DNA of 64,000 bases. Source: Anthracocystis setariae (Eukaryota > Basidiomycota > Ustilaginomycetes > Ustilaginales > Ustilaginaceae). Positions 40,274 through 63,170 of this stretch are shown here, piece after piece; the first letter of the stretch is position 1; each line of letters starts with the position of its first letter. The stretch is from assembly GCA_928724745.1 (NCBI GenBank), contig CAKMXJ010000022.1, positions 248,001 through 312,000 on the forward strand, read 5' to 3'. Under the pieces are notes generated by a model, which made no database searches, was not told where the DNA came from, and worked only from the letters and a program-made list of their open reading frames with translations. Made by a program: the position numbers and the translations under genes.

Positions 40274-40509
40274 TGTTGGAAATCGGACTCCAATTTCCCA
40301 CTCTTTCAATACAACAAGCCAAGTTTAACATGCAGCTTTGACAAATGGCACCTCAACCTCAAGGTGCCATCCTTGCCACAATCATGGTCCAACATAATGT
40401 GATTCACACACTCTACAACAATGACTCCAGGCCCTTGCCTGGCAACTCACACAGTCCTGGCATCCAACATATTGGAGACACAAGGAGTCTAGACACCTGT
40501 CAACCCAGG
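40274..40509. repeat. Older repeat, copy 1, left part
   Basis: Starts TGTTGGAAATC and runs to the target duplication of gypsy-A. It is alignable by eye with 50470-50695 (shared stretches such as TCTAACATG/TTTAACATG, GGCTTTGAC/AGCTTTGAC, AAGGTGC, CCAGG). Together with 50221-50440 it forms one diverged copy split by gypsy-A. A TG start suggests an old LTR, but no internal genes or clear end were found. Confidence 0.6.
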
Positions 40510-41624
40510 TGTCAGCGGTCGGGCGCCTGGTAAATAGGCCGAACTCGATTTGAGCGCGGTGCGGTCCTGTTGGGCTGGGCCGCCAAGTTTGTGTTACGCG
40601 CCTGTGCAACTGGGAGGTACGAGGTGGGTTGCGCAGGTACGCCGGCGGCCCGAAGAGGACTATTAAGCCGCACTCGATCTAGCGGCGGCGGAGTGAGAGT
40701 TTCTTGACCGCGTTCGACCCTTTACCGACTGACCGATGTCGGCGCTCCGTTCAGAGGCAGCACGGCGTACTCGGTACAGCGGCGTGATGGCCTAATGTCT
40801 CGTGAGCGCTCTTGACGAGACAGAAGGCGGGTTGATTGGTTAGATGGTCACTGGAAGTGATCACTAAGCTGTTACGGCGACGACTTAGGGCCTGACGTCC
40901 CGATGTCAGCTTGTAGGCAGCGTTTACGCGCTGCGGTGTCGATACCGGTACCGACGAGGTCTAGCTGTTCTCCGACTTGAACGGAGGCACGCGAGGAAGC
41001 TGCAATGCTACTTGTATTGCAACTTACTGAACTAGAAACTGAATGATCGTGAAGACGACGTTAAGAAGCTATACTGAGCTGAAGACTGGTGTTGTAAGAA
41101 GTAGAGTGGATGAGGAGCTCATCCACTGCGAGTCAGAGGAGGAGGCCTTAAGTAAGACAGCTCCAAACCCCTATGACAAGGCCGATCCGGCGCTAGCCTA
41201 TTGTCTAGCTGCATGGCCTGCGTGTGCGCATGTACTGACCGTGGTACAAGCAGCTGATCACCTCCAAGCCTCTGAGAGCGCCGGAGATGGTGTCCCTCAC
41301 CTGCTGATCACCTCGAGATGGCGTTTGTCGCGATCCGGCGTCTCTGCGCCGTCGAACTGCCGCAATCCGATCGCTATGGGCGAAAACGGCTGAAAGAGAC
41401 TCTCTGAGCCGCACTCACTCCGAACGCGGCCGAGAAGCGTGTTTCCCACCGCTCCAACTTTGCCCCCCGTGAGTAACGCCACTACCAAATTCGGCGCACT
41501 GCTGGTCACGTATCTTCCCTCACTCGAATGCGAGGGCGGTTGACTGTAGCCCTCTTAACCGCGCTCGAGCCGAAAGCGGCCGAAAAACCAGCTTTCCGCC
41601 GCCTCAGCTTCTCTGCCTGTGACA
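40510..41624 (-). repeat. gypsy-A LTR (3' LTR in element sense)
   Basis: 1115 bp, starting TGTCAGCGG and ending CTGTGACA on the plus strand. It is preceded by target duplication CCAGG. Short frames inside it are repeated in the other LTR and have no family resemblance. Confidence 0.93.
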
Positions 41625-41770: not shown

Positions 41771-43408
41771 ATGGCGCCCAAGAAGAAACCTTCTCCTGCT
41801 TCGACCATTCCCTCGCGTCGATCGGCTCGGCTTGCCAAGACGCCAGCCGATGCCGATTCCGCCTCCAACTTGTCGTCCAGCGCCAGTGATGCCCCGGTGG
41901 CGTCAAACAGTAATACCACGCCGGCTGTAACCGTCGTCGCCGCCACTGCTGACGTGCCTGACCCCATGCCTTCGGTTGCTGATGCTATCCCATCTGACGG
42001 AGGGACCGAGGTTGCCGCTGTTACCGCGCCGGCAGTCGTGGCCGTAGATACTGTGACTGCCGCTTCCGACGTTGTGGCTCAATCTGTTGTTGATGCTCCG
42101 CCTGACGCCATTGCGTCCCCTATCGACATCGCTGCGCCCGCACCCGTGACCCCTCCACCGAACCGGATTCCGTCTGCTGGGGTTGGCTCTTTGCTGGTAC
42201 CATTGTTCCTTGGGCCGTCGCGCTCGCCATCGTCGAGAGGTTCAATCTCGCCCCCTCGCTCGCCGGTCTACGTACGTTCCTCGCCGGACCTGTACGCGCC
42301 CCCCACCTCTCCTTCCCGAATTCCTACCTCTCCGGTGAGGTTCACGGCCGAGGAGCTGCGTGTGATGACTAGCGCGCAGCTCCATGAGCATGGTCTAACG
42401 CCCGCCTCGCCCGTGATGCCCCGCTCGCCCGTCTATGGTGCGGAATCTACCGAGTCTGCTGGTCCCGGGCGCACTGATACGCCTGTGGGATCTTGGGAAT
42501 CGTCCAGCCGCCAGACGCCTGGTCTTGGCCCGCTCCTGGGATCACCCGGCCGCCGAACGCCCGAGATCGGCCCGCCGCCTATTCGTCGAGCCGAAGACGT
42601 GGTGCCGCAACGCACAGGTCCACGCAAGCCAACTCTAGTCGAGATGCTGGAATGGACCGAACGTTTTACTGCCCCTGCCTTGCTCATTGCGATCGTCAAC
42701 GAGGCCTGGGACCGCGATTGGCAGCTGGACGATGCCGGTAAAGTCTGGTTGCACCGAACGATGGTGCGACGCTTGACCGAGGGTAGTTCTCCATGGCCGA
42801 ACTACAGCTGCCAGCACTGTGCCGACTTGGATGTGCCGTAAGTATCGCTCTCGACATAAGTGGTTTTTGGACAACACTAACATTTTGCCTTGTTTCTTGA
42901 TGGTACTAGGTGCTTTCCGGTCACATATGGTGATCCCACGGGTCCTCGTCCCCGACCCGCCGCCTCGTCATGCTGCCATTGCTTGACGAGCAAGAAGAAG
43001 TGTGGTGGCCGCACGATCTGGCGCTCCACACGTCACGAGTACGTCGGCGATAGCCCGTACACAACGCTGGGCACACACGAGCGAGCTGTGGTGCGGGCCC
43101 ACCTATCGTACTCTGGTGGTCTCGGCTTGGGTGCGGTGCGGCGTCGCGACCGCCTGGTGGATTGGTACAAGGAGCGATCCTTTTACCTCGACGCTCGCGA
43201 CGCCTTCTCAGCGGAGGGCACAATCGGTACCCAAGTGCGTGAGACCTTGGCGCGGTACCACCGCGAGAATCGCTCCCTGCTCGGCCAATACCTTCCGTGC
43301 GAAGTCATGGAAGAGGAGCCGAACTTCGAGGGTCTAGGCTGGTTCGTGGAGAGCCGCGGTGACGATGAGGATGAGGTGCGATACCACCGCCCTGAGGTCT
43401 TCCGCTAA
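41771..43408 (+). CDS. Antisense accessory gene of gypsy-A, Cys-cluster protein (two exons)
   Basis: The predicted protein has 521 residues, joined from exons 41771-42837 and 42910-43408. The 72-nt intron has donor GTAAGT, branch site CACTAAC and acceptor TACTAG, and the frame is kept across it. It runs opposite to gag-pol and is tail-to-tail with pol. The N-terminus is basic (MAPKKK, RRSARLAK), followed by about 230 residues rich in Ala, Pro, Ser and Val, then a more ordered segment (EMLEWTERFTAPALLIAIVN). The splice junction falls in a cysteine module: CQHCADLDVPC and, after about 20 residues, CCHCLTSKKKC, that is two CX2CX6C triplets. A helical, charged C-terminus follows. It recalls a Zn2Cys6 DNA-binding cluster with a longer linker. 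No known family recognised. Confidence 0.7.
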
Positions 43409-43629
43409 ATGTTGTCCAGCAATTCCAGGTCGTTTATGTCTATTCGTTGTGTTTGAAACCCTTCTGCATTGGTCGTGATGTCTTGAAACTTGAGAAAAGA
43501 GTGTGAGTGTGTGGCGACGGATGTCGATGGCGGCTAGTTAAATGGCTCACACACCGCAATCGCGTCACGGCGGCTGAGTGACCCGCACTGCGCCGCCAAA
43601 TCATTGAGCGCGGCTGGGCAGCTAGGCAG

Positions 43630-46600
43630 TTAATTCGCCTGCCGTCTTCCAGCGCTTCGGAGTCGTCCCCCCCGCTTTTCCTCATACTCCCGAATGAGGT
43701 CTGGGCAGGCGAGAAGCTCCTCATACTCCCAAGACGCTTGCTCCTCCGGGTAGCCTTTCCAGAGTACGCGGTATTGACGCCTGCCGTTGACGGCACGGTG
43801 TCCAGTGATCGCCTCGACCTCGTACTTGAGGTCTTCGTCGGGTAACGGCGGTACTGCCACACGCTCTTCCCGACCAGCTAATTCGCTGGGTCGCCGCTTC
43901 TCAAGCATCGAGACGTGGAAAACGTCATGGACCCGTAGTGTCGCTGGTAACTGGAGGCGGTACGCTCGAACGCCGATACGCTCGACAATGGGGTACGGTC
44001 CTGCGAAACGGGTGTCGAGCTTGGGACTCGGTCGACGAGTCTTCCAATTACGTCGATTGACGTAGACGAGCTCACCGACCTTGAACTCGACATCCAAGCG
44101 CTTCCTGTTGTACTGCTCAACCGCACGAGCTTGAGCCAATCGAACTTGGTTTTGCAGATAGGCAGTGAGCTCCGCTTCCGAACAAGCGAACTCCGCTCGT
44201 TGAGGGTCAAGCACGCCAGCACGCTCCGGTACTTCAGGATGCATCTTAGGATTCCACCCGTAGCACGCAAAGAATGGCGAGACGCCGAGGCTGCTGTGGA
44301 CCGCGTTGTTGTAGACGAACTCGGCGTTGGCCAGCAGCGAGGCCCAGTTGTCTTGTTCGTAGTTGCAATACATTCGGAGGTACTGCTCGACGACTTGGTT
44401 GACCCGTTCAGTCTGTCCGTCTGTCTGAGGATGGTACGCCGTCGATAGAGAGTGCTGAATAGAGAGAGATTCGATGTACCGCTTCCAGACCGCGGAGATG
44501 AACTGACGACCGCGGTCCGAGACGATATGCTCGGGTGTTCCGAACCGTCGGTACACATGTTGCTGGAGGAGCTCGGCTGTGCGAGCCGAGGTGACGGTCT
44601 TGACTGTCGGCGTGAGCACCGCGAGCTTGGTGAGCCGATCGACGACAACGAGGATTGAGTCATAGCCATCGGAGAGTGGCAGACCCTCAATGAAGTCCAT
44701 GGATATCGACCCCCATGGTCTCGAGGGAGTGGCCAACGGCTTGAGGAGGCCGTACAGCCGATGTCGGGGTGCCTTGTAGCGAGCACAGACTGGACAGCTC
44801 GCTACATAGTCAGCGATCCAAGCACGCATTCCCGGCCACCAGTAGTGACGCTGTGTGAGGGCTAGCGTTGCATCACGGCCCGGGTGGCCGGCGGTGATGC
44901 CGTCATGGCACTGTGTCATCACCATGAAGCGCAAGTGCTCCACCGAGAGGGACTGCTCGCTGACGATCTTAGCTGAGCGTGTATCGCGGCGACCCTGTTT
45001 TCCGGCGAGCGTGACCTTGGGAATGACAAGTCGGCCCTCGCGATGCCAAAGACCGTCTTTGACTTCGAAAGGCGTGTGCTTGTGGAGCTCTTGGAGCTCA
45101 GTATCGAGTGGTTGGAAAGTGCGAGCCAGCTCCGGCAGGCCACCTTTCACTATTGCCGCCATCGGCGACTGCGGCCGAATGGCCCCCACTAAGCCGCTGT
45201 CGGATCCATTTCGGCTCGGTAACTGATTTCCCGGTAATGCAGTTCCAAAAATGCGGGGGTGGAGGAGCTGCCGTACGTTATGTTCGCGCTCTTCAGCCGA
45301 CGGCTCCATGTCACTGCGTCGTGTCAGGGAGTCGGGCTCGCCAGCCTTGTCTCCTGGTCGATACTGAACAACGAAGTCGAAGTCGGCCAGTAACACGGCC
45401 CACCGAGCCTGTCGGCCGCTAATTCGACGTTGCACGGTGAAGTACTTGAGCGCCTCGTGATCCGAAAGAACAGCGAACTGAGACGGGAGCCCCGCCAGCA
45501 TATGTCGCCACTGATGGAGGCAGGCAACGATGGCGAGGAGCTCCTTGTCGTGAATCTCGTAGTTCCTCTCTGCAGACGTCATTTTACGCGAATAGAAAGC
45601 CACCGGATGCCATCTGTTTTCTGTCTCCTGCTTGAGGACGCCGGCGATGGCGAAGTCGCTGGCGTCGGTCTCGAGGCGGGTTGGTTTGTGATAGTCGAAA
45701 TGTCGTAGTACTCCGGCCGTCGTGAACGCTTCGATGAGCTTGTGGAAGGCCTCGACCGCCTCCTCCGGCAGGTGGAACTTCTTGAAACGCTCCGTAGGTT
45801 TGATGAGCGTTGTGAGGGGCTTCGAGATCCGAGCGAAATGTGAGATGAATCGGCGGTAGAAGTTCGCAAAGCCAAGGAAGCGCTGGATATCATGAATCGT
45901 CTGCGGCAACGGCCACTCTTTGATGATTCGTACCTTTTCTTGATCCATTTCGATACCTCCTGGCGTGATGATGTAGCCGAGGAACTCGACGGTGTCAGTG
46001 TGGAAAGTACACTTCGACAGTTTGGCGAAAAGTCGGTTTGCTTGCAAACGCCGCAATACCTCGCGGACGTGCTCAACGTGCTCGTCTTCATTGTTGCTGA
46101 AGATGAGGAAGTCATCGAGGTACACCACAACGTAAACGCCGATGATGTCACGAAAGATGCCGTTGACCAGAGACTGGAAGTGTGACGGTGCGTTTGCCAG
46201 CCCGAAAGGCATGACGAGATACTCGTACAGGCCGAGCTGTGTGCCGAATGCCGTCTTCCATTCGTCGCCGTCGGCTATACGTACCAAGTTGTACGCTGCC
46301 TTGAGATCGAGCTTGCTAAACACCTTGGCGTTCCTGAGTAGGAACAGCTGCTCCTCGATGAGCGGTAGTGGCGCTCGATTCTTGACTGTGACCTCATTGA
46401 GCCCTTGGTAGTCTACACAGAGACGGAGGCCTCCGTCCTTCTTGGGCACAAACAGCACTGGCGAGCGCGCTGGGCTCTTTGATGGTCGAATGAATCCCTT
46501 CGTGAGGTTCTCGTCGAGATACCTGCGAAGTTCTTCCATCTCCTTAGGCCCCTTGAGGTAGAGTGGACCCTGAGGAGGTTTGGCTCCCGGCACGAGCTCG

Positions 46601-47397
46601 ATGGGTAGGTCAGTGCTGGTGCGCGGGGGCAGCTTGTCAGCCTCGACTTCACTGAACACCGCCTCGAGATCCCGATATTGCTCTGGAACCGACGCCGGAG
46701 TAGGTGGCTCCGGCTCCACCTCAATCTCGATGCCCTTGTCTTCGCCGGTAGGGACGAAACCGAAGCTAGGCAGCGATGAGGGTGGAGCATCGATCAGCAT
46801 AATGCCAATCGGTCCGTCCTGATAGGACGCCTGAACAAGTCGTTGGAACGAGACGAACTCGTTTCCGTGGACTGTGATAGCCGGCTCATTAGATGGTAAG
46901 GCGCGGCTGGTGACGTTATGGGACAGGCCGAAGTTGCGCTCAACGCGGTCCGATGGATCTCGCTGAGCCGCGGTGAATTTAATTCGGCCCAAAATCCAGT
47001 CGATCCTCGGCTGAAGTGTGCGAAGCTCCTGATAGCCAATAATGAGGTCGAAATCACTGATGTCCGCGACATAGGCCTGCAGCGGCGGTAAGGACTGCTC
47101 GCCGATGTCGACCGTCAGCGTCGCAACGTGTGTGATGGCTAGACGATGGCCGCTGACGCCGTGGACCGCGGTGGGCTGGGGAGTGGTCTTGATGTTAATA
47201 CAATATGTACGAGCGTAAGCGCTTGAAAGAAGAGACAGTGAGGCTCCGGTGTCGGCCAGGATGCGAGCCGGGCACCCGTTGATGGTGCCGGTGACTTCGA
47301 GGACCGATGGATTGGAGTTGGCAGAGAAACACAACGAACAGTTCCGATATATACAGGGTGATGGCGAGGGCGGTTGTAGGGCAAGACAAGCCATCAT
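43630..47397 (-). CDS. pol: gypsy-A pol polyprotein with chromodomain
   Basis: 1255 residues. It carries an aspartic protease (ILADTGAS, about residue 46), reverse transcriptase with YLDDFLIFS (about 420), RNase H (ETDASDFAIAGVL), integrase with an HHCC zinc domain (about 825-880) and catalytic Asp/Asp/Glu (SMDFIEG, VSDRGRQF, ERVNQV), and a C-terminal chromodomain (YEVEAITGHR, YRVLWKGYPEEQASWEY; about 1190-1245). The chromodomain marks it as a chromovirus and may steer integration to histone-marked chromatin. Its ATG overlaps the gag stop as ATGA, so pol is in the -1 frame and could be made by frameshifting or by stop-restart. All frames are open. Confidence 0.95.
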   Translation of the reverse strand: MMACLALQPPSPSPCIYRNCSLCFSANSNPSVLEVTGTINGCPARILADTGASLSLLSSAYARTYCINIKTTPQPTAVHGVSGHRLAITHVATLTVDIGEQSLPPLQAYVADISDFDLIIGYQELRTLQPRIDWILGRIKFTAAQRDPSDRVERNFGLSHNVTSRALPSNEPAITVHGNEFVSFQRLVQASYQDGPIGIMLIDAPPSSLPSFGFVPTGEDKGIEIEVEPEPPTPASVPEQYRDLEAVFSEVEADKLPPRTSTDLPIELVPGAKPPQGPLYLKGPKEMEELRRYLDENLTKGFIRPSKSPARSPVLFVPKKDGGLRLCVDYQGLNEVTVKNRAPLPLIEEQLFLLRNAKVFSKLDLKAAYNLVRIADGDEWKTAFGTQLGLYEYLVMPFGLANAPSHFQSLVNGIFRDIIGVYVVVYLDDFLIFSNNEDEHVEHVREVLRRLQANRLFAKLSKCTFHTDTVEFLGYIITPGGIEMDQEKVRIIKEWPLPQTIHDIQRFLGFANFYRRFISHFARISKPLTTLIKPTERFKKFHLPEEAVEAFHKLIEAFTTAGVLRHFDYHKPTRLETDASDFAIAGVLKQETENRWHPVAFYSRKMTSAERNYEIHDKELLAIVACLHQWRHMLAGLPSQFAVLSDHEALKYFTVQRRISGRQARWAVLLADFDFVVQYRPGDKAGEPDSLTRRSDMEPSAEEREHNVRQLLHPRIFGTALPGNQLPSRNGSDSGLVGAIRPQSPMAAIVKGGLPELARTFQPLDTELQELHKHTPFEVKDGLWHREGRLVIPKVTLAGKQGRRDTRSAKIVSEQSLSVEHLRFMVMTQCHDGITAGHPGRDATLALTQRHYWWPGMRAWIADYVASCPVCARYKAPRHRLYGLLKPLATPSRPWGSISMDFIEGLPLSDGYDSILVVVDRLTKLAVLTPTVKTVTSARTAELLQQHVYRRFGTPEHIVSDRGRQFISAVWKRYIESLSIQHSLSTAYHPQTDGQTERVNQVVEQYLRMYCNYEQDNWASLLANAEFVYNNAVHSSLGVSPFFACYGWNPKMHPEVPERAGVLDPQRAEFACSEAELTAYLQNQVRLAQARAVEQYNRKRLDVEFKVGELVYVNRRNWKTRRPSPKLDTRFAGPYPIVERIGVRAYRLQLPATLRVHDVFHVSMLEKRRPSELAGREERVAVPPLPDEDLKYEVEAITGHRAVNGRRQYRVLWKGYPEEQASWEYEELLACPDLIREYEEKRGGRLRSAGRRQAN

Positions 47398-49067
47398 TCG
47401 GTTGTCCCACGCCCGTTTCCCTCAACGTCGTGTTCATCGTCGACCCCGTCGTCGTCAGCGAGGGGTGGGAGATCTTCATAACCAAGCGTCTCCTCCTCAT
47501 CTTGGTCTTCGACGTCCTCTTGTGCCACGGCGTCCTCTTGTGCTACATAGGCCCGAGGTCCAGGCCGTCGTGGAGCTCCGGTGGCCGTCTCGCGGGCGGG
47601 CTGGGGGCAGTCACGCACCCAATGGCCCTCCTTACCGCATCGCTTGCACGTGGTGGCGCCGAACGTCGTCGGCGAACGATCGTAGACGACGGGCAGGCGT
47701 TGGGCCAGATGGGGCGGCAAAGGCCGAGGACGCGCTGGGGAGGGTGTGGCTGCAGCCGGCCGAGCCTCCACGGCGGACGGTGCCAATACCCGCCCGGCCG
47801 CTTTTGCACCGTCGGCGGTCGGGGCATGAGTTCTTCCAGCCGCCGAGGGGAAATCGTACCGCAATGAGTTTGAGATCGGCTGAGCGAGGGTCGCTGCGCC
47901 GCCTTGGTACGTCTGTTGCGCTAAGACCCGGTTGCGATCCAAATCCTCCACCTCGCGGTAGAACTCCCACAACGTCTTCGGCGACGTACGCTCGAATTGA
48001 CGCTGGAGAACTGGGGTCAAGCCCCGCCGGAAGAGGTGGAGTTTGAGGTGCTCGTCACTCATGCCAGCTCGCTCCTCGAGGGTCCTGAACGCTTCGACAT
48101 ACTCGCTTGCAGCGCCTGGCTTGTCGGTTGCGAGGCGCAGGGCGTAGAGCTTATTGAAGGCGTCCAGCTTCTCGTCGTGAACGCCGTAGAGCTGCTTGAG
48201 CCGGTTGACGAAAAGGGTCCAGTCACCGAACAATGCACCCGACTGAGATGGATCGGCGCGTAGCTTCGACCGGTACCAAGTGAGGGCCCGACCCTTGAGA
48301 TGCGGTCCCAGGAATTGGATCCTCTTGCGGCCGTCGGACATCTCCTGATACCGGAACCAGGCCTCGACCTGAATGAGCGACATCTCCAAGTCATTCTCTT
48401 GCCAGTCGGGGAAGTCAAGCTTCGGGTCGCTCTTGGTAGTATTGCGCTCGAAGGTTGCTTCCCGTGCTGTCGCTATAGGATGATCCCAGGCGGGGCGCCG
48501 GCCGGTGGAGGTCGAGTACAAGTCCTCCTGACTGTACTCGTCGTTCCAGCGTAGGGCTGACGCCACTGGGCGACGGGCGGGGGTGGAACTGCCCAGCGGA
48601 ACAGAGCGCCGTGGGTCATCGTGCATGCTATACGATCCCATCTCTTGCGAGCCGAGTCCAGAAGCAACGGTGGCGACCTCAGGCTCACCTCCACGGCGTA
48701 GTGCTGGCTTGATCTGTTCCCTGAGGTCCGAGATCTCAGCCTTGAGCGCGAGGATCTCTTCCTGGTGTGCCATTAGAGGTCGCGCCGAAGCTGGGGTAGT
48801 AGTCAGGGGCGTGGACGACGGCTTCGAGCCTGTTGCTTGGTCCATGAGCGTGTAGAGCTTCTCCTGGAAGCGGAGTCGGTCTTGGCTCTCCTTTAGCATG
48901 GCCTCCTGACGACTAGTTTCGTAAATCATACGTTGGGTATGGATCTCCCTCATCTGTAGTCGTAGGTCCTCAATTAAGCCTTGCAGCAATGGCTCTGGGT
49001 TGGCTGCAGGAGGCGACGAAGCCCGACTGCGAGGAGTGCTGCCTCGCGGCGCGGTTGCGTCGGACAT
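47394..49067 (-). CDS. gag: gypsy-A gag protein
   Basis: 557 residues. The N-terminal part has a predicted coiled coil (QGLIEDLRLQMREI, EILALKAEISDLREQIKP). The central region WFRYQEMSDGRKRIQFLGPH to LYALRLATDKPGAASEYVEA resembles the retrotransposon gag (capsid) domain, and one zinc knuckle, CKRCGKEGHWVRDC, lies at about 466-479. The tail is acidic. It packages the genomic RNA. The start lies 37 nt inside the 5' LTR end; a TGG 6 nt inside that LTR could begin a primer-binding site, but I could not assign a tRNA. Confidence 0.93.
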   Translation of the reverse strand: MSDATAPRGSTPRSRASSPPAANPEPLLQGLIEDLRLQMREIHTQRMIYETSRQEAMLKESQDRLRFQEKLYTLMDQATGSKPSSTPLTTTPASARPLMAHQEEILALKAEISDLREQIKPALRRGGEPEVATVASGLGSQEMGSYSMHDDPRRSVPLGSSTPARRPVASALRWNDEYSQEDLYSTSTGRRPAWDHPIATAREATFERNTTKSDPKLDFPDWQENDLEMSLIQVEAWFRYQEMSDGRKRIQFLGPHLKGRALTWYRSKLRADPSQSGALFGDWTLFVNRLKQLYGVHDEKLDAFNKLYALRLATDKPGAASEYVEAFRTLEERAGMSDEHLKLHLFRRGLTPVLQRQFERTSPKTLWEFYREVEDLDRNRVLAQQTYQGGAATLAQPISNSLRYDFPSAAGRTHAPTADGAKAAGRVLAPSAVEARPAAATPSPARPRPLPPHLAQRLPVVYDRSPTTFGATTCKRCGKEGHWVRDCPQPARETATGAPRRPGPRAYVAQEDAVAQEDVEDQDEEETLGYEDLPPLADDDGVDDEHDVEGNGRGTTE

Positions 49068-49104
49068 GTCGAGTACGGGGCGCTGCTTGAACGATCCACT
49101 CTAA

Positions 49105-50220
49105 TGTCAGCGGTCGGGCGCCTGGTAAATAGGCCGAACTCGATTTGAGCGCGGTGCGGTCCTGTTGGGCTGGGCCGCCGAGTTTGTGTTACGCGCCTGT
49201 GCAACTGGGAGGTACGAGGTGGGTTGCGCAGGTACGCCGGCGGCCCGAAGAGGACTATTAAGCCGCACTTGATCTAGCGGCGGCGGAGTGAGAGTTTCTC
49301 GACCGCGTTCGACCCTTTACCGACTGACCGATGTCGGCGCTCCGTTCAGAGGCAGCACGGCGTACTCGGTACAGCGGCGTGATGGCCTAATGTCTCGTGA
49401 GCGCTCTTGACGAGACAGAAGGCGGGTTGATTGGTTAGATGGTCACTGGAAGTGATCACTAAGCTGTTACGGCGACGACTTAGGGCCTGACGTCCCGATG
49501 TCAGCTTGTAGGCAGCGTTTACGCGCTGCGGTGTCGATACCGGTACCGACGAGGTCTAGCTGTTCTCCGACTTGAACGGAGGCACGCGAGGAAGCTGCAA
49601 TGCTACTTGTATTGCAACTTACTGAACTAGAAACTGAATGATCGTGAAGACGACGTTAAGAAGCTATACTGAGCTGAAGACTGGTGTTGTAAGAAGTAGA
49701 GTGGATGAGGAGCTCATCCACTGCGAGTCAGAGGAGGAGGCCTTAAGTAAGACAGCTCCAAACCCCCTATGACAAGGCCGATCCGGCGCTAGCCTATTGT
49801 CTAGCTGCATGGCCTGCGTGTGCGCATGTACTGACCGTGGTACAAGCAGCTGATCACCTCCAAGCCTCTGAGAGCGCCGGAGATGGTGTCCCTCACCTGC
49901 TGATCACCTCGAGATGGCGTTTGTCGCGATCCGGCGTCTCTGCGCCGTCGAACTGCCGCAATCCGATCGCTATGGGCGAAAACGGCTGAAAGAGACTCTC
50001 TGAGCCGCACTCACTCCGAACGCGGCCGAGAAGCGTGTTTCCCACCGCTCCAACTTTGCCCCCCGTGAGTAACGCCACTACCAAATTCGGCGCACTGCTG
50101 GTCACGTATCTTCCCTCACTCGAATGCGAGGGCGGTTGACTGTAGCCCTCTTAACCGCGCTCGAGCCGAAAGCGGCCGAAAAACCAGCTTTCCGCCGCCT
50201 CAGCTTCTCTGCCTGTGACA
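49105..50220 (-). repeat. gypsy-A LTR (5' LTR in element sense)
   Basis: 1116 bp, nearly identical to 40510-41624. It is followed by target duplication CCAGG at 50221-50225. Confidence 0.93.
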
Positions 50221-50440
50221 CCAGGGGGAGTCTGAACCTGAACACACTTGCAATGGTCCAGACTTTGTTGATACTTTAGAGAACATTTTCTAGTTCCATC
50301 ATGAGGTATAGATAGCACCTGATGTGTTGTACTTAGCATTTGTCAAATCATCAAATCAATTCCCATCTTCCCCTATAGCTAACCAGGACACTTCAATGGC
50401 AAGCCATTTCTTCTAACCTACAATATTTTTTTTAAAAATC
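50221..50440. repeat. Older repeat, copy 1, right part
   Basis: Continues copy 1 after the gypsy-A insertion. It matches part of copy 2 (GAACATTTT, AGTTCCATCAT, CATTTGTCAAATCA shared). The right boundary is not defined. Confidence 0.55.
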
Positions 50441-50469
50441 AGGACTGCGCAGGAGGATGGGTTTGCAAA

Positions 50470-51080
50470 TGTTGGAAATCTGAGACCAATTTCTGTCATT
50501 TTTCCTATGCAACAAGCAAAAGTCTAACATGTGGCTTTGACCAGAAGCACCTCACTGGCAAGGTGCTATCCTTGATGTTGGCACTCCTGTTCTACAGTCA
50601 CAGACCCATGCTTGGTGATTTCCATGGTCCTGATGTTCAACATGTTGGGGACGCCAGGGATCTAGGCTTCTGGTGTTCCAGGGGGAGTCTGGACTTGCCC
50701 CAGGTGGCAAGGTTCCAGACTCAATGGTGACTTGCAGGAAATGCCAGCAAGTTATTTGAGGTTCCCCACAAGGTTGCGTCCCTCAACGTTGAGGTGATCA
50801 CATCTTTGAGAGTTGGAGCCCCATGGGTAATGTATGGAGCTTTTACAGCAAACATTGATACTTAGAAGAACATTTTGCAGTTCCATCATTGTGTACAAGT
50901 AGCACTCAATGTATCCTAGTGAGTGTTTGCCATTTGTCAAATCAAAATTCCACTTCCCTTGATATCTACACAAGTCACCTCAACAGCAAGCTACTCACCC
51001 TCACCATCAACCTCATCACATATCCCAATTCATATCCTTTGCATTCCTCAAGGAGTGCCAAGCTACCCCTGCGTTACAAG
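50470..51080. repeat. Older repeat, copy 2
   Basis: Starts TGTTGGAAATC like copy 1 and contains the CCAGGGGGAGTCTG stretch in which gypsy-A inserted in copy 1. It is clearly diverged from copy 1, hence old. Perhaps a solo LTR of an unrecognised family. No coding capacity. Confidence 0.55.
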
Positions 51081-51152
51081 TTAAAAATACAAGTATGTTG
51101 ATAACCCTTGCTGCTACTAGGCCACAGGCATAACAGCTGTGAGGCTGCAACA

Positions 51153-51813
51153 TGTTATACTCCTGGGGTCTGAGAACCTCGGAACGTGGTTGTGCGTCTG
51201 TATTGAGGCCAGGGGCATGGTACTGGGTGTTGCTCCCGGGATTGTTGCCAAGATAGCGGAGCAGGAGAGCGGGGGAACGGGAGAAGGTCTGATATTTCCA
51301 CCTACTAGAGTGAGTAAGCTAAAATACAATCAACATCCTGTCGTGAGTGTACTGGGGTCAGATCATGAGAATATGTGGTCTCCCGGATACCCCCTGGGAG
51401 ATGCCGCAGCCTACCCCGATCCCCAATCCGGCGTCCTATTGGGGTTGCTCCTTGTTACGCTCCTGGGGTCTGGGAACCTCGGAACGTGGCGGTGCGTCTG
51501 TATCGAGGCCAGGGGCGTGGTACCGGGTGTTGCTCCCGGGATTGTTGCCTAGATAGCGGAGCGGGTGAGCGGGAGATCGGGAGAAGGTCTGATATTTCCA
51601 CCTACTATAGTGAGTAAGCTAAAATACAATCGACGTCCTCTCGTGAGTGTGATGGGATCTAGCCGTGAGATTATGTGGCCTCCCGGATACCCCCCGGGAG
51701 ATGCCGCAGTCCGTCCTGATCCCCAATCCGGGACTATATCGGGGGAGGACTACCCACGCCCAGGTTAAGACTAAAACCAATCACGAACCCTCCCGATATT
51801 CCTATTCATAACA
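51153..51813 (-). repeat. gypsy-B LTR with internal 300-bp tandem duplication
   Basis: Begins TGTTATAC and ends CATAACA on the plus strand, so the termini are inverted (TGTTAT/ATAACA), and the polypurine tract follows directly. Two 300-bp units (51153-51452, 51453-51752) are head-to-tail, each starting TGTTA with CTCCTGGGGTCTG shortly after; a unique 61-bp end follows. The partner LTR is outside the window, so the target duplication cannot be checked. Confidence 0.75.
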
Positions 51814-51825
51814 TTACCCCCCCCC
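51814..51825 (-). other. gypsy-B polypurine tract
   Basis: Nine G followed by TAA on the minus strand, abutting the LTR exactly as in gypsy-A. Confidence 0.65.
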
Positions 51826-52100
51826 GGGAAGGCCGACGTCCTCGTGGCCTGCCTGGTGCTCCCGGGTCTTAACCTCCACCCGGGAGGCCCCCGGACCCAC
51901 CACGCGTGGTCCGCGCTGAGAACAAAGGAGTCAGGAACGAACGCTTTGTGTGCCTGGCGGGGCGTGCGCGGCGGAGCGTGCGCAGCGGGCTGAGCGCTAA
52001 CTTCTCGTTTGTATATAAGACTCGCCTCGTTCCCGTTCCTGGTTCCTTCCCTTCCCCCACAACCTCGTTCCTCAACACCCGGGACGTTATTTTCATCAAC
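51826..52100 (+). promoter_or_regulatory. Promoter region of the gypsy-B antisense gene
   Basis: A TATA-like GTATATAAG at 52011-52019 lies about 80 bp upstream of the predicted ATG at 52101, with a CT-rich stretch between. It points along the plus strand, into the accessory gene and against pol. Confidence 0.5.
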
Positions 52101-54022
52101 ATGCCTAGTAGGTACTGACCAGGACCCGGGAAACGGATTGCGATCATATGCTGACGTCTTTTGTTTTTGCCTTTTACCGGGACAGCAACACGGTCCTCCA
52201 CCCGGCGCGGTGGCCCCGACTCTGGGGTAGCGGGAGGCTCTGCCCCCGCCCCCAATCAAGCAATGGCCGTGGACGAGTCCCGGGGCGTTAGTGCCCCGGA
52301 GGTCGTGGACGAGTCCCGGGGAGTGAGTGCCCCGGAGGTTGCGGATGAGTCGGGCCACTATGTGGCCCAAGAGGGAGATGTCGTCTCCCTGTATGTGGAC
52401 GAGTCCCCCGTGCTCCCGCGCGGGGAAGCTGGCCCCAATTTGGTCCCGGGCGCCAGGGGTGTGGACAAGTCCCCGGCACAGGCTTCGGCCTCGTGCCGGG
52501 AAGAAGGGCAACGGGCTCCCGGGCCCCCGGACAATGGCTCCGGCAGCGTGGTGGTCCCCCTAGTGGGGCTGTCCCCGGGTCCTCGAACGTGACCACCCCG
52601 ACTCCCGGGCGTGGCGTACCGATCGGGGATCCCGGTAGGCTGGCCGAGCTGGTCCGGGAGGTGAGAGCGCGGGGTGCCCCTCCTGCCACGGAGGGGTACG
52701 GGCAGTGCTGGTCTTGCGCGAATAGCAAGAAGAAGCCGCACCCGCAATGCTCCCTGGGGTTTGCGCACCGGGACGTTGGGGGTCCGGAGGACCCCCGGGG
52801 CGGTCAGCCTGCCGCGTGTGAGAGGTGCCACGTCGCGGGGTATCCCTGTGACTGGCAGGGGCGCGTCCCGGACATCACGGGACGCCAGGAGGGCGGCTTC
52901 CTTATGGAAGCCTATCTTGTCCTCCGGGCCCGGGGTCAACGTCCAAACCCCGGGATGCCCTTCACCTCGTTCTCCGCGGCCGACCTCCCGGGCTACCTGG
53001 CGGCCGAGTACGCCCCCGCGCGTGCTCGGTACGAGGCTCGGCGTCAAGCCAAAGCGGGGAGTCGTCCCCGGGCTCCCGAGTCTCCTGCTGGGCCGTCTAC
53101 CGGTGGGGGCAGCACTGCCCCGGGCTCCCGGCCCCCTCGGGGTCAACGGGGGTGGAAACAAACCACCCTTGTCCCCGACGCTCCCTTGGCCCTGCGCCAA
53201 GTTTGTCCCTTCGACGCTCCGGGGGACCAACATGTGGCCGGGGCCCGGGAGGCAGCATCCCACGTGGCGGGAGTAATCGCCGCGCTGGTGCAGGTCCTTT
53301 GCCGGACCGCTGCTGTGGGGGCGGAGCGTCGCCTGGAGTGGTCCTCCCGGGACAAGAGCATCCTCCGGTACCTGGAGGGTGTGAGTGGTGCTTTCGAGAG
53401 CATCACCCGGGAGCTTGGCGTCCCGCTCCCTCCCCCGCCCCCGGTGGTGCCCGTGCCTGCACCTGCCCCTGTCCCGGCCCCCGCCCCTGCGCCTCCTCGT
53501 GCGGCGGCTCCACGGCGACCCAATGCCGAAGCTGGGCCGTCTCGCCCCCGGGGTTCTCCTCTCCCCGGTTACACCCCGGCGACCCCGGAGATGGCTCGTG
53601 CCAAAAGGCAGGGTCCCGGGACGCCAACGCGGGAGCGGGCTCCCCGGGCGAGTGGCTCCCGGCCGCAGACGGGGGGAAAGCGCCCTCCTCAGACGGGGGG
53701 TAAGCGCCTCCCGGGGAGCTTCCAGACGGGCGGGAAGCGTCTCCCGGTGGGTGGACTCCGCCCTCCCTCTCCCGAGCCGGAGAGGCGTGCCCAGCGCCGC
53801 CGCGCTCAGGCGGTGGTGCGGGACATGCGGGCCCCAATCCGTTCCCGCCGTCGGGGGAGCTCCCGGGACGACTCCCCGGGCAACTCCCGCGACGAGGGGT
53901 CCTCGGGGGCGGAGGAACGCAGCCGGGAGTCCGGGGAGGACTCCGACGAGGATGTGGTGATGGTGGACTCGGACGTATACGAGCCCCGTCCCCGCACCCC
54001 TCCTCGTAAGAAACGGAGGTAG
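52101..54022 (+). CDS. Antisense accessory gene of gypsy-B, Cys-cluster protein (spliced, 5' structure uncertain)
   Basis: Predicted exon 1 is 52101-52107 (MP plus one base); an intron 52108-52185 (GTAGGT donor, GCTGAC branch site, GGGACAG acceptor) leads into a frame reading TTRSSTRRGG. That frame ends at 52592, while the main frame (open to 54022) is shifted, so a second intron or a frameshift is required. GTGAGT at 52323 to CAG at 52456 is one possible second intron. The main part has CWSCANSKKKPHPQC and, about 25 residues later, CERCHVAGYPC, then a helical stretch (RAASHVAGVIAALVQVL), polyproline, Lys/Arg-rich repeats (QTGGKR) and a C-terminal PPRKKRR nuclear-localisation-like end. A repeated VDESRGVSAPEV peptide lies near the start. 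Opposite to pol. Confidence 0.55.
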
Positions 54023-54322
54023 GCGCCCGGGAGTTCGGTCTGGTCGTGTGTCCGGGGTCATTAGGACCCCGGGAATGAAATTGTTTTTCCCTCGAGTCCC
54101 TGCGTGTTGAGTGTGTGTGTGTGTGAGTGTGTCGGTGAGCCTTCTGTCCCCTGGGCGCGATGGCCGGGTCGGGGGAAAACCTGGGACAAGCTGGGTTTGG
54201 CGGGGCGCATGACTCCCGACTACTGGTCCGTTCCCCGGATCGGGGCAGTGCGTCGTCCGTTCCCTTGCCGTTGCTCCCCAAGGTGGCCGAGCTGGCGTCC
54301 GGAAGGCGGGGGCAGCCGGGAG
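54023..54322. other. gypsy-B spacer between convergent pol and accessory gene
   Basis: About 300 bp between the ends of the antisense gene and pol. It contains a GTGTGTGT microsatellite near 54111-54124. No gene. Confidence 0.4.
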
Positions 54323-54749
54323 TCAGCAGTCCCGGGAGCTAACTTGGCTCCCGGACTGCCGCTGATGGAATTCCTGGAGCAACTCCTGGCTGTTCTCTAA
54401 GTGAACCGCTGGCTCCCACGTGGGTTGGGTGTAGCCTGCCCACTTTACTCGGTACTGCCGCCCCCGACGTGTCTTGCGGGAGGCCAGGATGTCTTCCACT
54501 TCGAAGTCCTGCCGGTCGTCCTCCAGGCGCCGGGACGTTGGGGCGTGCTCGGAGGGCCGGGTGTCCGGGGAATGCGGCTCCAGGAGGCTGACGTGAAACA
54601 CCGGGTGGATTTTCCAGGCGGGCGGGAGGTCCAACTTGTAGGCCCGGGAGCCTACCGCCTGGAGAATCCGGAACGGCCCCGCTAACGGATTCCCTAACTT
54701 CCGGGAGGGTCGATCTTGACGCAGATGTCGGGTGCGGAGTAGCACCATG
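54323..54749 (-). pseudogene. gypsy-B pol, 3' end (integrase tail and chromodomain), cut by copia
   Basis: This is the C-terminal piece of pol. It contains the GPF-type integrase end (GNPLAGPFRILQAVGSRAYKL) and a chromodomain (FEVEDILASR, YRVKWAGYTQPTWEP). It joins in frame with the piece at 63171-64000 once the copia insert and one copy of CCATG are discounted, so pol was open here before insertion. Confidence 0.88.
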
Positions 54750-55464
54750 TATTGGAAGTCGACTGCGTCAAGGGGCGACCTTGACGGTAGGCAGCCAGGT
54801 ACGATGAGTCTATCGTCTGCCAAAGATACTATAACAAGTAGCTAAGTCGCTATAGACCTCACACTGGTGGATGGGCGTATAGAGCTGGCTCTGTTGTTAT
54901 GTCAGGCCAGTTAGATCCGTAACCAAGAGCGGGCGGTGACGTTAGGCAGCAGGCACGAAGGGGAGAGACCTATGTCGATACAACAGTAGCGACGTCGGTA
55001 AGGATCTGTAAGTAGCAGGCGTTATGATACGGAGAAGTTGGTAATGAATCGATTGAGGGATCATCAACTGTGCGCTCGAAGTACGCCCTATAAATACACT
55101 TAGTCCCCTACACCGTTGTTGCCCGTAGCGGTGTAGGGAACCCCATAGCGTCGACGTTAGTGACAAGATTCTACGCTAAGTGTAAACAACAGTTGATCAT
55201 CAACATAAACAACGATGTTGATAATAACATGACCCGACGAGTAACATCCCGGTCAGAGATGTGATGAGGCACCATGTCAACGTCACGTGGGAACGCACAG
55301 TGCCAGCATTGGCATTGGCACGCGTATAGTTTCCCCGCTGCCGAGTCCCGAGGAATTGTATTGTCGGCAACTATGTCGGAATATTACCGCCCTAGTTATG
55401 GACATACCGACGTCTGTAGTGTCACGTCGATAGCTGACGCAGCAGGTGACCATATATTTCAACA
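54750..55464 (-). repeat. copia LTR (3' LTR in element sense)
   Basis: 715 bp. In element sense it runs TGTTGAAATA to CCAATA, so it ends TG/TA and not the common TG/CA. It contains a plus-strand TATAAATA at 55089-55096. Confidence 0.93.
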
Positions 55465-55474
55465 GTCCCCTTCA
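55465..55474 (-). other. copia polypurine tract
   Basis: GATGAAGGGGAC on the minus strand directly before the 3' LTR. Short, with one C at the LTR edge. Confidence 0.5.
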
Positions 55475-55853
55475 TCTGCTAAGTCATTGAGGCCATCGAC
55501 CATGACATGAGACATATACAAACCTCACACGCATAGCTGTGTTTAAGTGATCGCACTTGAATTTGCTAGAGAGCAAGCGATCAGGGAACTTGAAGAGACA
55601 ACTATAGACACTAGCGCCAGCGCTAAGTTACTACAGTGAGCGGAAGGACCGGAACGAGACATCGAGAACTACCTGAATGAAGTTGAGACCTATTGCGCCG
55701 AAAGGGAAAGGGGCCGTTAATAGAACGGCGGCGACATGAAAGTCATCAGCGACGATGAGGAAACAACTACATACAAGGGAGTCGTTGGCCTAAGGCCCAA
55801 GGAAAACGGATCGGGGAAAGGAAAAGGCAAAATACTACAGCTAGCTGCAGTGA
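55475..55853. other. copia 3' non-coding region
   Basis: About 380 bp between the accessory gene and the 3' LTR. I see nothing recognisable in it. Confidence 0.4.
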
Positions 55854-57014
55854 TTATCGCGACAAGCTACCCACGTACTCGTCGTCGTCATCGTCATAAA
55901 GATGGATGAGGTGTTCATCATCCTCGTCGGAGCTATTTTCGCCTTCCGTTTCCTCTGCCTCCTCTTCTTCGTCGTTATCGGCGACGGGAGTTGGGTTACG
56001 AGGGCGGCGAGGACGAGGGAAGCTAGCGGAGGGACGAGCAGGCGACGGCGACATAGGAGTGGTGGGAGCGGCGGCGAGTTGTCGGTTGTTGGAAGGAGCG
56101 GCTCCAGACGCGGTACCTTCAGCGGTAGGGCGAGGTCGACGTGGAGCAGAACGACGAGGACGGCGATGAGGGAGCAGAACGTCGGCAACATTACCACCAG
56201 TAAGAATGTCCGGCATGTCAATGTTGAGCAGGGACGAGAGCAAATTGATGTCCACGATAGCTGCATCGAATTCCAGCTGGCGAGTAAGTCCGTTCACATG
56301 CATCCGCAGTCGAGCCAACGCATTAGCGATGGCGGCACGGTCCTGCCGTCCACGCGTCTTGCGGTGGTTGTCGCCGATCAAGGTACAGGACTTGCCATGT
56401 CTGTGACACAGATCACAGCTGTCCGTACGCTGCTTGCCAGTCATGTCGAACCCGGTACCCGTAGTGCAGATGACGCCCTTCTTCATGCAATAATCGCATC
56501 CAGGCAATTTGACCCAATATCCTTGTCGAATTACCTCTTGCTCGTCGGAAGGGAAGTCGGCAAGGGTCTCCCGCTGATTGGTAGTCCCTGCAGGCAACGG
56601 GAACGCGAAGCGTCTACGCTTGCCCGGCGTTTCAGGGGAAGCGGTACGCCCTTGGCGACGACTGGAGGACGATGCATTAACAGGGGGAGTGGAAGTCTGA
56701 CCAGGGATTTGGTCTTCGGCAGGAATTGGCTCACCACGAACGATCGATCTCGTATAAGGAGTACCACCCCTCAAGCGGCGCTGTGAAGGGGGCGGGGGAG
56801 ATGGCGTTCGGACGTCAGCTAAGTCGATTACTTCAGGCGGAGCGCTCTCACGTGCTTTTCCTGCACGGGTAAGTGCAGGGCGAGAGCTGGAGGCGGCTGC
56901 CGACGTCGGGGGAGCGCTTGAAGATGGGGCGGAGTTACGGGAAGCGGAATTAGTGCTGGACTTAGTCTTGCCGTTGTTGTTCCCTTTGCCGCGACCGCGG
57001 CCTCGTTTAGGCAT
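55854..57014 (-). CDS. Sense accessory gene of copia, Cys-cluster protein
   Basis: 386 residues from the ATG at 57014 (MPKRGRGRGKG), one exon, same strand as gag-pol and about 800 bp downstream. The N-terminus is basic and Ser/Ala-rich. PPEVIDLADV looks like a SUMO-interacting motif, and PGKRRRF like a nuclear signal. The core is CDYCMKKGVIC and, 16 residues later, CDLCHRHGKSC, two CX2CX6C triplets, followed by RKTRGRQDRAAIANALARLR, a basic helix that could bind DNA or dimerise. The tail alternates Pro/Arg-rich and strongly acidic stretches (EEEEAEETEGE, YDDDDDEY). The layout is like a transcription factor. No known family recognised; resembles the antisense genes of gypsy-A and -B. Confidence 0.7.
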   Translation of the reverse strand: MPKRGRGRGKGNNNGKTKSSTNSASRNSAPSSSAPPTSAAASSSRPALTRAGKARESAPPEVIDLADVRTPSPPPPSQRRLRGGTPYTRSIVRGEPIPAEDQIPGQTSTPPVNASSSSRRQGRTASPETPGKRRRFAFPLPAGTTNQRETLADFPSDEQEVIRQGYWVKLPGCDYCMKKGVICTTGTGFDMTGKQRTDSCDLCHRHGKSCTLIGDNHRKTRGRQDRAAIANALARLRMHVNGLTRQLEFDAAIVDINLLSSLLNIDMPDILTGGNVADVLLPHRRPRRSAPRRPRPTAEGTASGAAPSNNRQLAAAPTTPMSPSPARPSASFPRPRRPRNPTPVADNDEEEEAEETEGENSSDEDDEHLIHLYDDDDDEYVGSLSR

Positions 57015-57813
57015 AGTGAGACAAGAGTAACAGATGCGGTACAAGGTAAAACAGCAGGGGAAATCTTGAGAATGCAACGGTAAGAGCGTATATGCACCGT
57101 GACGGAATTATCGACGTAGGTAATGACTTGCAGCGACCGGAAGAAAAGATAGTCGTGTGAATCCAACCGAAGAGGCGAACCGCGAGAGGAAGAAGACACC
57201 AGCTCCTAGTCGAGGAGGCTGGCAACCGAGGGGAGATGTGGATTGAGGCCACGAGGCGTTGAGCGACAATGGCAACGAATAAGCGTTGGCGTTGTTGAAC
57301 GCGCGTGAGAGGGAATGAGACAACCGATGCTTGATGATGATCACCGACAGCTACAGATGTAGTGCCGGGTCGCTTGAGGAGTGATTGAGGAGGAACGGGA
57401 AGGGAAGTGGCGGCGGTTGTTGAAATCGAGTAGACCCTGCGTCGGCTAGCTCGTGCTAGAGTCCAGAAAAAAATTTTCTCGCTTGATCGGCATGAGATGC
57501 CGCAGTTTTATTTTTATTTTTAATTTTACTTGCCGCTGCTGAAGAGGTTCGGCCGAAGTCTGGAACTGTAAATCGGAATCGGAAAATATTTACCTGAATC
57601 GGGAATTCGAGAATTATCGCGCGATAATATTTTAACGGCGATGTTATGTTGTTCCAGTAACGCTATATGTACTAACGACGTTGTTAAGTCGGTTGCGTTT
57701 ACGCGACACGTCGAATTAGGATTTTTGACGTGATAATTAGTGATTTTCACGCTACCCATTACTGTTAGGTTGGGAATAATTTGCGCGTCACGTCAATTTG
57801 AATTTCGGCGCGT
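57015..57813. other. copia spacer between gag-pol and accessory gene
   Basis: About 800 bp, AT-rich around 57470-57680. It could hold the promoter or a splice acceptor for the accessory gene. I see no further frame of interest. Confidence 0.4.
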
Positions 57814-62451: not shown

Positions 62452-62455
62452 AACC
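62444..62455 (-). other. copia primer-binding site matching initiator tRNA-Met anticodon arm
   Basis: GGTTATGAGCCC, read on the minus strand, begins at the first base after the 5' LTR. It is complementary to the anticodon stem-loop of fungal initiator tRNA-Met (GGGCTCATAACC), not to a tRNA 3' end. Drosophila copia uses the same half-tRNA type of priming. The gag-pol ATG lies within it. Confidence 0.75.
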
Positions 62456-63170
62456 TATTGGAAGTCGACTGCGTCAAGGGGCGACCTTGACGGTAGGCAG
62501 CCAGGTACGATGAGTCTATCGTCTGCCAAAGATACTATAACAAGTAGCTAAGTCGCTATAGACCTCACACTGGTGGATGGGCGTATAGAGCTGGCTCTGT
62601 TGTTATGTCAGGCCAGTTAGATCCGTAACCAAGAGCGGGCGGTGACGTTAGGCAGCAGGCACGAAGGGGAGAGACCTATGTCGATACAACAGTAGCGACG
62701 TCGGTAAGGATCTGTAAGTAGCAGGCGTTATGATACGGAGAAGTTGGTAATGAATCGATTGAGGGATCATCAACTGTGCGCTCGAAGTACGCCCTATAAA
62801 TACACTTAGTCCCCTACACCGTTGTTGCCCGTAGCGGTGTAGGGAACCCCATAGCGTCGACGTTAGTGACAAGATTCTACGCTAAGTGTAAACAACAGTT
62901 GATCATCAACATAAACAACGATGTTGATAATAACATGACCCGACGAGTAACATCCCGGTCAGAGATGTGATGAGGCACCATGTCAACGTCACGTGGGAAC
63001 GCACAGTGCCAGCATTGGCATTGGCACGCGTATAGTTTCCCCGCTGCCGAGTCCCGAGGAATTGTATTGTCGGCAACTATGTCGGAATATTACCGCCCTA
63101 GTTATGGACATACCGACGTCTGTAGTGTCACGTCGATAGCTGACGCAGCAGGTGACCATATATTTCAACA
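62456..63170 (-). repeat. copia LTR (5' LTR in element sense)
   Basis: 715 bp, identical by eye to 54750-55464. It is followed on the plus strand by target duplication CCATG. Confidence 0.95.

Follow-up and report, generated by a model that had tools for sequence, protein, structure and literature searches.

Long terminal repeat retrotransposons of Anthracocystis setariae carry selected cysteine-cluster genes and, in several lineages, private dyads: candidate self-specific regulators

In the VANDAL elements of Arabidopsis, an element-encoded protein, VANC, counteracts silencing, related elements are enriched in different short motifs, and coevolution of protein and motif has been proposed (PMC5735166). 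An arrangement that may work in a similar way is described here for long terminal repeat (LTR) retrotransposons of the basidiomycete Anthracocystis setariae, based on a stretch of 64,000 nt (contig CAKMXJ010000022.1, positions 248,001–312,000; hereafter the window, to which all coordinates refer). All results come from one 21.5-Mb genome of 36 contigs. Two chromodomain gypsy elements of the window (gypsy-A and gypsy-B, both on the minus strand) and one copia element each carry, in the interval between pol and the 3′ LTR, an extra gene for a protein with two cysteine clusters. Judging from sequence, it is fairly probable that these proteins are self-specific, dimeric, zinc-cluster-like DNA-binding regulators of the copies of their own element. 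As with VANC, a family-specific short motif is enriched in the encoding element; this holds for the window copia (C1), its sister lineages C2a, C2b and C2c, and gypsy-A, and not for gypsy-B or the copia groups D and E. Unlike VANC, whose motifs lie in non-coding tandem repeats of elements that are not LTR retrotransposons, the motifs here are palindromes, and 13 of the 20 sites of the window copia are in pol. The likeness would be one of mode of action, and membership of the VANC system is not claimed.

Additional open reading frames (ORFs) between pol and the 3′ LTR, in sense or antisense, have been described in the plant elements Grande, RIRE2 and Retand and in Boty (brtn) of the fungus Botrytis (PMC7264820, PMC11963269, PMC8365987). 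They are present in most copies and a nuclear regulatory role has been proposed; the passages covered do not mention cognate sites (PMC7264820, PMC11963269). The genes described here share with them the position, the antisense orientation in gypsy elements and the presence in most copies, with Boty as a fungal case, and differ in their CX2C pairs, conserved introns, sense copia counterpart and private dyads. In bdelloid rotifers, ORF3 genes are shared between LTR retroelement types, the types named being enzymes or envelope-like proteins (PMC5408684). The occurrence of one type of extra gene in unrelated retroelements is similar, although the protein here is a cysteine-cluster protein. Foamy virus Tas/Bel1 and HBZ of human T-cell leukaemia virus are accessory regulators acting on the LTR, and HBZ is antisense and spliced; their domains are unrelated to those described here, and to our knowledge dispersed private sites are not known for either. 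By title and opening of the abstract, none of the papers listed deals with a zinc-cluster protein that is encoded by a retrotransposon and has cognate sites in the LTR, subscription literature being mostly outside reach.

A preliminary description, made from the sequence alone, had placed a gene unrelated to gag or pol, with two CX2C clusters, between pol and the 3′ LTR of all three elements. This is confirmed, as are the spacings it gave (CX2CX6C twice in copia and, after splicing, in gypsy-A; CX2CX10C followed by CX2CX6C in gypsy-B). New here are the orientations (on the plus strand and antisense to pol for the two gypsy genes, sense for the copia gene), the introns of the gypsy genes, a frame change in gypsy-B and the candidate target sites. 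The extra genes comprise:

41771–42837, plus strand: gypsy-A extra gene, exon 1, with ATG, length 2 modulo 3, stop-free in 20 of 20 intact copies
42838–42909, plus strand: gypsy-A extra gene, intron of 72 nt (GTAAGT...TAG), donor and acceptor conserved in 20 of 20 intact copies
42910–43408, plus strand: gypsy-A extra gene, exon 2
42809–43003, plus strand: gypsy-A cysteine region, spanning the intron
52101–52185, plus strand: gypsy-B extra gene (antisense to pol), first exon of 7 nt with an intron of about 78 nt
52186–54022, plus strand: gypsy-B extra gene, exon 2 (single long exon)
52706–52849, plus strand: gypsy-B cysteine region, CX2CX10C-X22-CX2CX6C
55854–57014, minus strand (sense with pol): copia extra gene, stop-free in 16 close copies
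56385–56498, minus strand: copia cysteine region, CX2CX6C-X16-CX2CX6C

The gypsy-A intron interrupts the first cysteine cluster, and the spliced product reads CX2CX6C-X19-CX2CX6C. Frame, splice sites and all six cysteines are retained at 20 of 22 distinct loci; the two left out of the set of intact copies are L069, which is decayed with 8 internal stops, and L003, in which exon 2 could not be aligned. The 20 intact copies share 75–100 % nucleotide identity, with a GTAAGT donor, a YAG acceptor, an intron of 68–75 nt and an exon 1 of 986–1070 nt. In gypsy-B, frames of 622–676 aa are found in 9 of 12 aligned copies; the window copy carries a frame shift upstream of the cysteine region that leaves an open frame of 557 aa, and its relatives L027 and L028 have 546 aa. 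The sequence TATATAAG is located at 52012–52019, 89 bp upstream of the gypsy-B extra-gene ATG, and is invariant in 8 of 8 aligned copies.

Purifying selection, a check that the preliminary description had called for, is evident in all three genes. In gypsy-A, omega (Nei–Gojobori medians throughout) is 0.029 in the cysteine region, 0.046 in the preceding helical part, about 0.075–0.077 in exon 2 (20 copies) and 0.33 in the low-complexity N-terminus, with gypsy-A pol as a control at 0.059 (8 copies). The window copia gene gives 0.041 (8 of 16 close copies), and parts of gypsy-B give 0.057–0.24, the cysteine half being at 0.127 (12 copies). The core of the B2 gene is at about 0.052–0.062 (6 copies). 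For the sister copia lineages C2a and C2b the cores are at 0.10–0.17 and the N-termini at 0.35–0.47, with one stop in 3 of 14 copies. When all six frames on both strands were compared, the claimed frame alone was both stop-free and well below 1 in omega; opposite-strand frames that are open across the gypsy-B cysteine half and the B2 core have an omega of about 1.9. Since only the claimed frames are both open and constrained, the extra genes are real and not chance frames. At locus L037 the antisense B2 gene is overlapped by an open frame of 914 aa that runs in the direction of pol (1578–4319, minus strand), and this frame looks incidental, the opposite frame over the B2 core having an omega of 1.9.

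A survey of the genome, of the kind suggested beforehand for smuts, found the genes to be widespread. It used 81 copia reverse transcriptase hits and 112 of 114 gypsy SH3 hits, the other two being second halves of split elements; the gypsy groups were separated by score and not by tree, and every count is to be read as 'at least'. A C-type gene lies 1.1–2.9 kb downstream of 50 of the 81 copia hits, always in sense (antisense 0). In the higher-scoring gypsy group an antisense gene accompanies 73 of 81 hits (A gene in 24, B gene in 49), with neither in 8; both gypsy fragments have a B gene, and none of the 29 lower-scoring hits has an A or B gene. The rule of antisense in gypsy and sense in copia held except for two sense A/B matches within range of gypsy hits. 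A gene of the other type lay close by in some cases (a C gene at 4 gypsy hits, an A or B gene at 5 copia hits), and unpaired gene matches numbered 11 of 61 for C, 1 of 25 for A and 9 of 60 for B. By position, antisense orientation, presence in most copies and conservation the gypsy-A and gypsy-B genes belong with the class of additional ORFs (aORFs) termed aORF-3R, whereas the copia gene, lacking the antisense orientation, is a sense aORF.

Three groups (D, E and F) were inspected among the 31 copia hits without a C-type gene. Pol identity to the window copia is 55–58 % for C2, 44 % for D, 43 % for F and 38 % for E. Groups D and E have sense genes of their own: in D at 7 of 7 loci, with CX2CX6C-X15-CX2CX6C and a helix-like tail (L077 with a stop after the cysteine region), and in E at 5 of 6 loci, with CX2CX11C-X10-CX2CX6C and a tail. 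The single F locus, L076, has a large downstream frame without a CX2C pair. Of two lower-scoring gypsy loci, L075 yielded no CX2C pair; at L074, two CX2C motifs occur in a frame of 141 aa on the opposite strand (3559–3981, minus strand), more than 3 kb past pol. L074 also has, downstream of pol, an open frame of 562 aa in antisense (1005–2690, minus strand) without CX2C or Pfam match, which may be a different antisense gene or an adjacent host gene.

Candidate target sites were sought with an unbiased dyad scan (7-base arms, spacer 0–20, counts within 3 mismatches, 8 shuffles each). The window copia contains 18 TACCGACGTCGGTA sites in 7.7 kb with one LTR counted (shuffles 3–5), and the best dyads of C2a, C2b and C2c count 12, 10 and 9 (shuffles 2–4); four 8-kb host stretches gave 4–6 (shuffles 4–6). 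The dyad differs by lineage: TACCGAC/GTCGGTA in the window copia, and ACCCGAC/GTCGGGT, ACACGCAA-N2-TTGCGTGT and CAACATTC-N6-GAATGTTG in the three sister lineages, the TACCGACGTCGGTA and ACCCGACGTCGGGT dyads being without spacer. A scan with no symmetry requirement ranks the same copia sites at the top. Over the whole window copia, both LTRs included, there are 20 sites with at most 3 mismatches, against a mean of 0.38 and a maximum of 3 in 40 shuffles. The LTRs contain 4 of them, pol 13, the stretch from pol to the extra gene 2 and the gene itself 1; positions 1–40000 of the window contain 1 site. The sites with listed positions are:

54987 and 55405 (54987–55418): TACCGACGTCGGTA-type sites in one copia LTR
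62693 and 63111: TACCGACGTCGGTA-type sites in the other copia LTR
57928, 57948, 58072, 58347, 58560, 58999, 59757, 60231, 60364, 60465, 60900, 61074 and 62182: sites in copia gag-pol
57109–57122: TACCTACGTCGATA, a site resembling a palindrome, about 108 bp before the ATG of the copia extra gene

Of the pol sites, 5 are in one codon phase, 8 in a second and 0 in the third, which points to selection at the DNA level. At a threshold of up to 3 mismatches of 14 bases or 4 of 16, the density of a copia motif is 2.0–2.4 per kb in its own element, at most 0.9 per kb in any other element examined and 0–0.07 per kb in 40 kb of host DNA. Genome-wide, the window-copia motif occurs with at most 1 mismatch at 84 places, compared with 5 for the reversed pattern; among 50 places listed and compared by eye, 38 are in known copies of the window copia, 6 are at LTR-pair spacing and 6 are elsewhere. 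Across six C2a copies, one of them without sites, conservation is 0.888 in the arms, 0.633 in the spacers and 0.623 in other columns. Short TACTGTAC-type repeats are also present in a host stretch of the window (6044–6672).

In gypsy-A the candidate sites have another form, six CGG-N19-CCG inverted repeats in the LTR that make up three pairs, with starts exactly 40 bp apart within each:

40646 and 40686 (span 40646–40710): CGG-N19-CCG pair, gypsy-A LTR
41387 and 41427 (span 41387–41451): CGG-N19-CCG pair, gypsy-A LTR, each site conserved in 15 of 15 copies
41537 and 41577 (span 41537–41601): CGG-N19-CCG pair, gypsy-A LTR, conserved in 14 of 15 and 15 of 15 copies

A six-fold count was reached in 0 of 500 dinucleotide shuffles at any spacing from 0 to 60. 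Over 15 of the 20 intact copies, conservation at the four gene-proximal sites is 99.7 % in the half-site columns, as against 76.5 % in the spacers, 76.2 % in columns outside the sites and 83.4 % in other CGG/CCG triplets; none of 20,000 random draws matched the half-sites. A CCG-N4-CGG dyad, the form of the Leu3 site, was considered in the gypsy-A LTR and rejected, as it is lost in diverged copies. Likewise rejected was a GCTCCC-N19-GGGAGC array in gypsy-B, of which the window copy has four, partly through a tandem duplication; six of seven relatives keep one and the seventh none. Within gypsy-B, CCCGGG is enriched at 51811–54022 (leader 4 vs 0.5 expected; extra gene 21 vs 6.4 expected), which could be a site or a codon/GC effect. 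Best dyad counts are 9 for gypsy-A (shuffles 5–7), 15 for gypsy-B (7–12) and 15 for B2 (6–10).

How the proteins relate to one another and to known zinc clusters was examined by profile and structure. The cysteine cores of gypsy-A and copia match as profiles (hhalign 92.6 %, E 4.4e-7; hidden Markov model E 4e-6), and that of gypsy-B has no convincing profile match to gypsy-A (6 %) or to copia (18 %). Of the single family and the exchange between elements proposed in the preliminary description, the parts concerning gypsy-A and copia are supported: given their match, exchange between these two is credible from sequence; for gypsy-B, which matches neither convincingly, the comparison did not show it. 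Zn2Cys6 domains have the spacing C-X2-C-X6-C-X5-12-C-X2-C-X6-8-C. Like Gal4 and Leu3, the gypsy-A and copia proteins have two C-X2-C-X6-C halves and a following helix, and CGG-type dyads are present. Unlike them, linkers are 15–22 residues long (10 in group E), those of copia (16), gypsy-A (19) and gypsy-B (22) being outside the Zn2Cys6 range, some first halves have X10 (as in gypsy-B) or X11, and the DNA-contact signature of the first half is weak. An AlphaFold2 model of the C2a copia core has a short helix following each CX2C and then a helix at 97–127. A Protein Data Bank sequence search gave no meaningful match, and a set of 5.8 billion proteins gave no homologue at E 0.001 for the copia alignment or gypsy-A, in a search without a positive control and with fungal coverage not established. 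A circularly permuted zinc cluster was considered and rejected; for gypsy-A the swapped order beats the canonical order but not shuffles (p 0.09–0.27), and for copia most halves, first and second alike, score better as the second half of a host cluster.

The proposal of element-borne regulators in the preliminary description, taken as putative DNA-binding proteins, is supported by purifying selection, the cysteine-plus-helix layout and the family-specific dyads of several elements. We infer a small, probably nuclear, dimeric protein with a six-cysteine, zinc-binding, zinc-cluster-like head, a helical, probably coiled-coil segment and low-complexity flanks. In gypsy-A and the C-type copia lineages it would recognize the dyad private to its own lineage, and binding would control transcription or chromatin state in copies of its own element only. 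Such a regulator is the simplest account that joins a selected cysteine-plus-helix protein with private dyads. The spread of copia sites along the element argues for an action on the element as a whole, for instance shielding from silencing, and not just for control of the promoter; the concentration of the gypsy-A sites in the LTR suits promoter control of gag-pol and the antisense gene. As to direction, relief from host silencing or activation of the LTR is a tentative preference, and repression for copy-number control is less likely, indeed rather doubtful. RNA-based silencing is possible, given a single strong Piwi-domain match in the genome (C11:421877–422797), and the host probably has RNA interference. 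A wider proposal, to which we would give slightly less than even weight, is that elements of both LTR superfamilies in this lineage run lineage-private recognition, in which a zinc-cluster-like dimer and a matching, diverging dyad code, extending in copia over the full length of the element with pol included, mark, protect or activate an element's own kind only. Protein and code would coevolve, and a small genome could thereby house many families free of cross-control.

Several observations weigh against self-specific zinc-cluster-like regulators. No extra protein reaches the Pfam Zn_clus (PF00172) cut-off of 21 bits, scores being 8.3–11.8 where listed, so that Zn2Cys6 membership by sequence is not supported. 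The C2a core model is of modest confidence (predicted local distance difference test score, pLDDT, 67) and the gypsy-B cysteine region is below 50; fold searches, made for neither the gypsy-B model nor the gypsy-A protein, returned helical-hairpin matches, with no zinc-cluster chain among the 50 matches listed in each, which does not in itself exclude the fold. Derivation and counting of the motifs used the same sequences, to which shuffles, host stretches, the cross-element matrix and conservation are only a partial answer. One host stretch has a dyad count of 6 against 4 in shuffles, and copia F, without a CX2C gene, has 6 against 3–4. In C2b (7 copies) the spacers, at 0.875, are nearly as conserved as the arms (0.938; other columns 0.607), and copies of the window copia, at 92–100 % amino acid identity, are too alike for such a comparison. 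With up to 3 mismatches allowed, 4 of 8 copies have the site 108 bp before the copia gene. For gypsy-A, when the choice of CGG is allowed for by scanning all triplets, the N19 signal has a P of 0.07 (4-mers 0.01), so conservation is the stronger evidence. In gypsy-B the dyad scan revealed no clear private array beyond CCCGGG richness, and GC-rich B2 exceeds its own shuffles, a result that is hard to read. Copia D and E, with counts of 4 and 2, have no array in the 4.5 kb examined despite their gene, and their LTRs may lie outside it.

This last point would also suit a different account, in which it is the host that binds the dyads, through a zinc-cluster regulator or a protein of silencing, and the extra proteins have another task, for example in nuclear import or as an aid to integration. 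With 93 Zn_clus matches in the host genome at E up to 0.1, host binders of CGG dyads are likely to exist. However, four sister copia lineages have four different dyads, dense at home and rare in the 40 kb of host DNA examined, which would not be expected from a single factor, and clear arrays occur in 4 of 4 C-type lineages and not clearly in F, L074 or L075 (the latter two with counts of 3 each), where a C-type gene was not found; the account is considered unlikely. More improbable is an accessory role of the proteins in binding RNA or cDNA, with the dyads as signals for packaging or folding the genomic RNA. CX2C clusters with basic flanks do suit nucleic-acid binding in general and the sites are distributed along the transcript, yet the spacer-less dyads suit a DNA duplex and not a hairpin, and the gypsy-A and gypsy-B proteins come from intron-containing genes on the opposite strand.

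That the antisense genes serve mainly as antisense transcripts feeding RNA interference, with the protein incidental, would draw on the Piwi-domain match and on the antisense transcription that spliced genes imply for gypsy-A and gypsy-B; selection on the protein comparable to that on pol, and the sense orientation of the copia genes, make it very improbable. Least credible of all is that the genes are captured fragments of host Zn2Cys6 genes carried without function. There is a likeness between the copia half-clusters and the second half of the host's zinc clusters, and a host Zn2Cys6 profile matches the copia core at E 2.6e-6 (database size 1000), but the selection tests refute this origin without function: core omega is 0.03–0.17 over many copies, frames are kept across indels and the gene is present in most elements of the carrying groups.

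The remaining features of the elements within the window are:

40510–41624, minus strand: gypsy-A 3′ LTR, the LTR pair identical in 1112 of 1116 aligned columns
49105–50220, minus strand: gypsy-A 5′ LTR
40505–40509 and 50221–50225: gypsy-A 5-bp target duplication, CCAGG
43630–47397, minus strand: gypsy-A pol, with domain matches to protease, reverse transcriptase, RNase H, integrase and chromodomain
47394–49067, minus strand: gypsy-A gag
51140–51810, minus strand: gypsy-B 3′ LTR region, with a tandem duplication of about 300 bp in the window copy
54323–54823, minus strand: C-terminal part of gypsy-B pol (SH3, chromodomain), interrupted by the copia insertion
54750–55464, minus strand: copia 3′ LTR, the LTR pair identical at 715 of 715 positions
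62456–63170, minus strand: copia 5′ LTR
54745–54749 and 63171–63175: copia 5-bp target duplication, CCATG
57814–62451, minus strand: copia gag-pol

The gypsy-B duplication (51140–51739) was not evident in the three relatives compared. Copia (54745–63175) is a very young insertion within gypsy-B pol, given its identical LTRs and the CCATG duplication, and the rest of gypsy-B pol continues past 63175.

What additional ORFs do in LTR retrotransposons, and antisense ones in particular, has been called unknown (PMC7264820, PMC11963269). The candidate cognate sites described here make that function directly testable. If the proteins are indeed self-specific regulators, self-specific control of transposable elements, known from the VANDAL elements of Arabidopsis, would extend to the Ty1/copia and Ty3/gypsy elements, and the genome would supply a natural collection of DNA-binding paralogues whose specificities have diverged.

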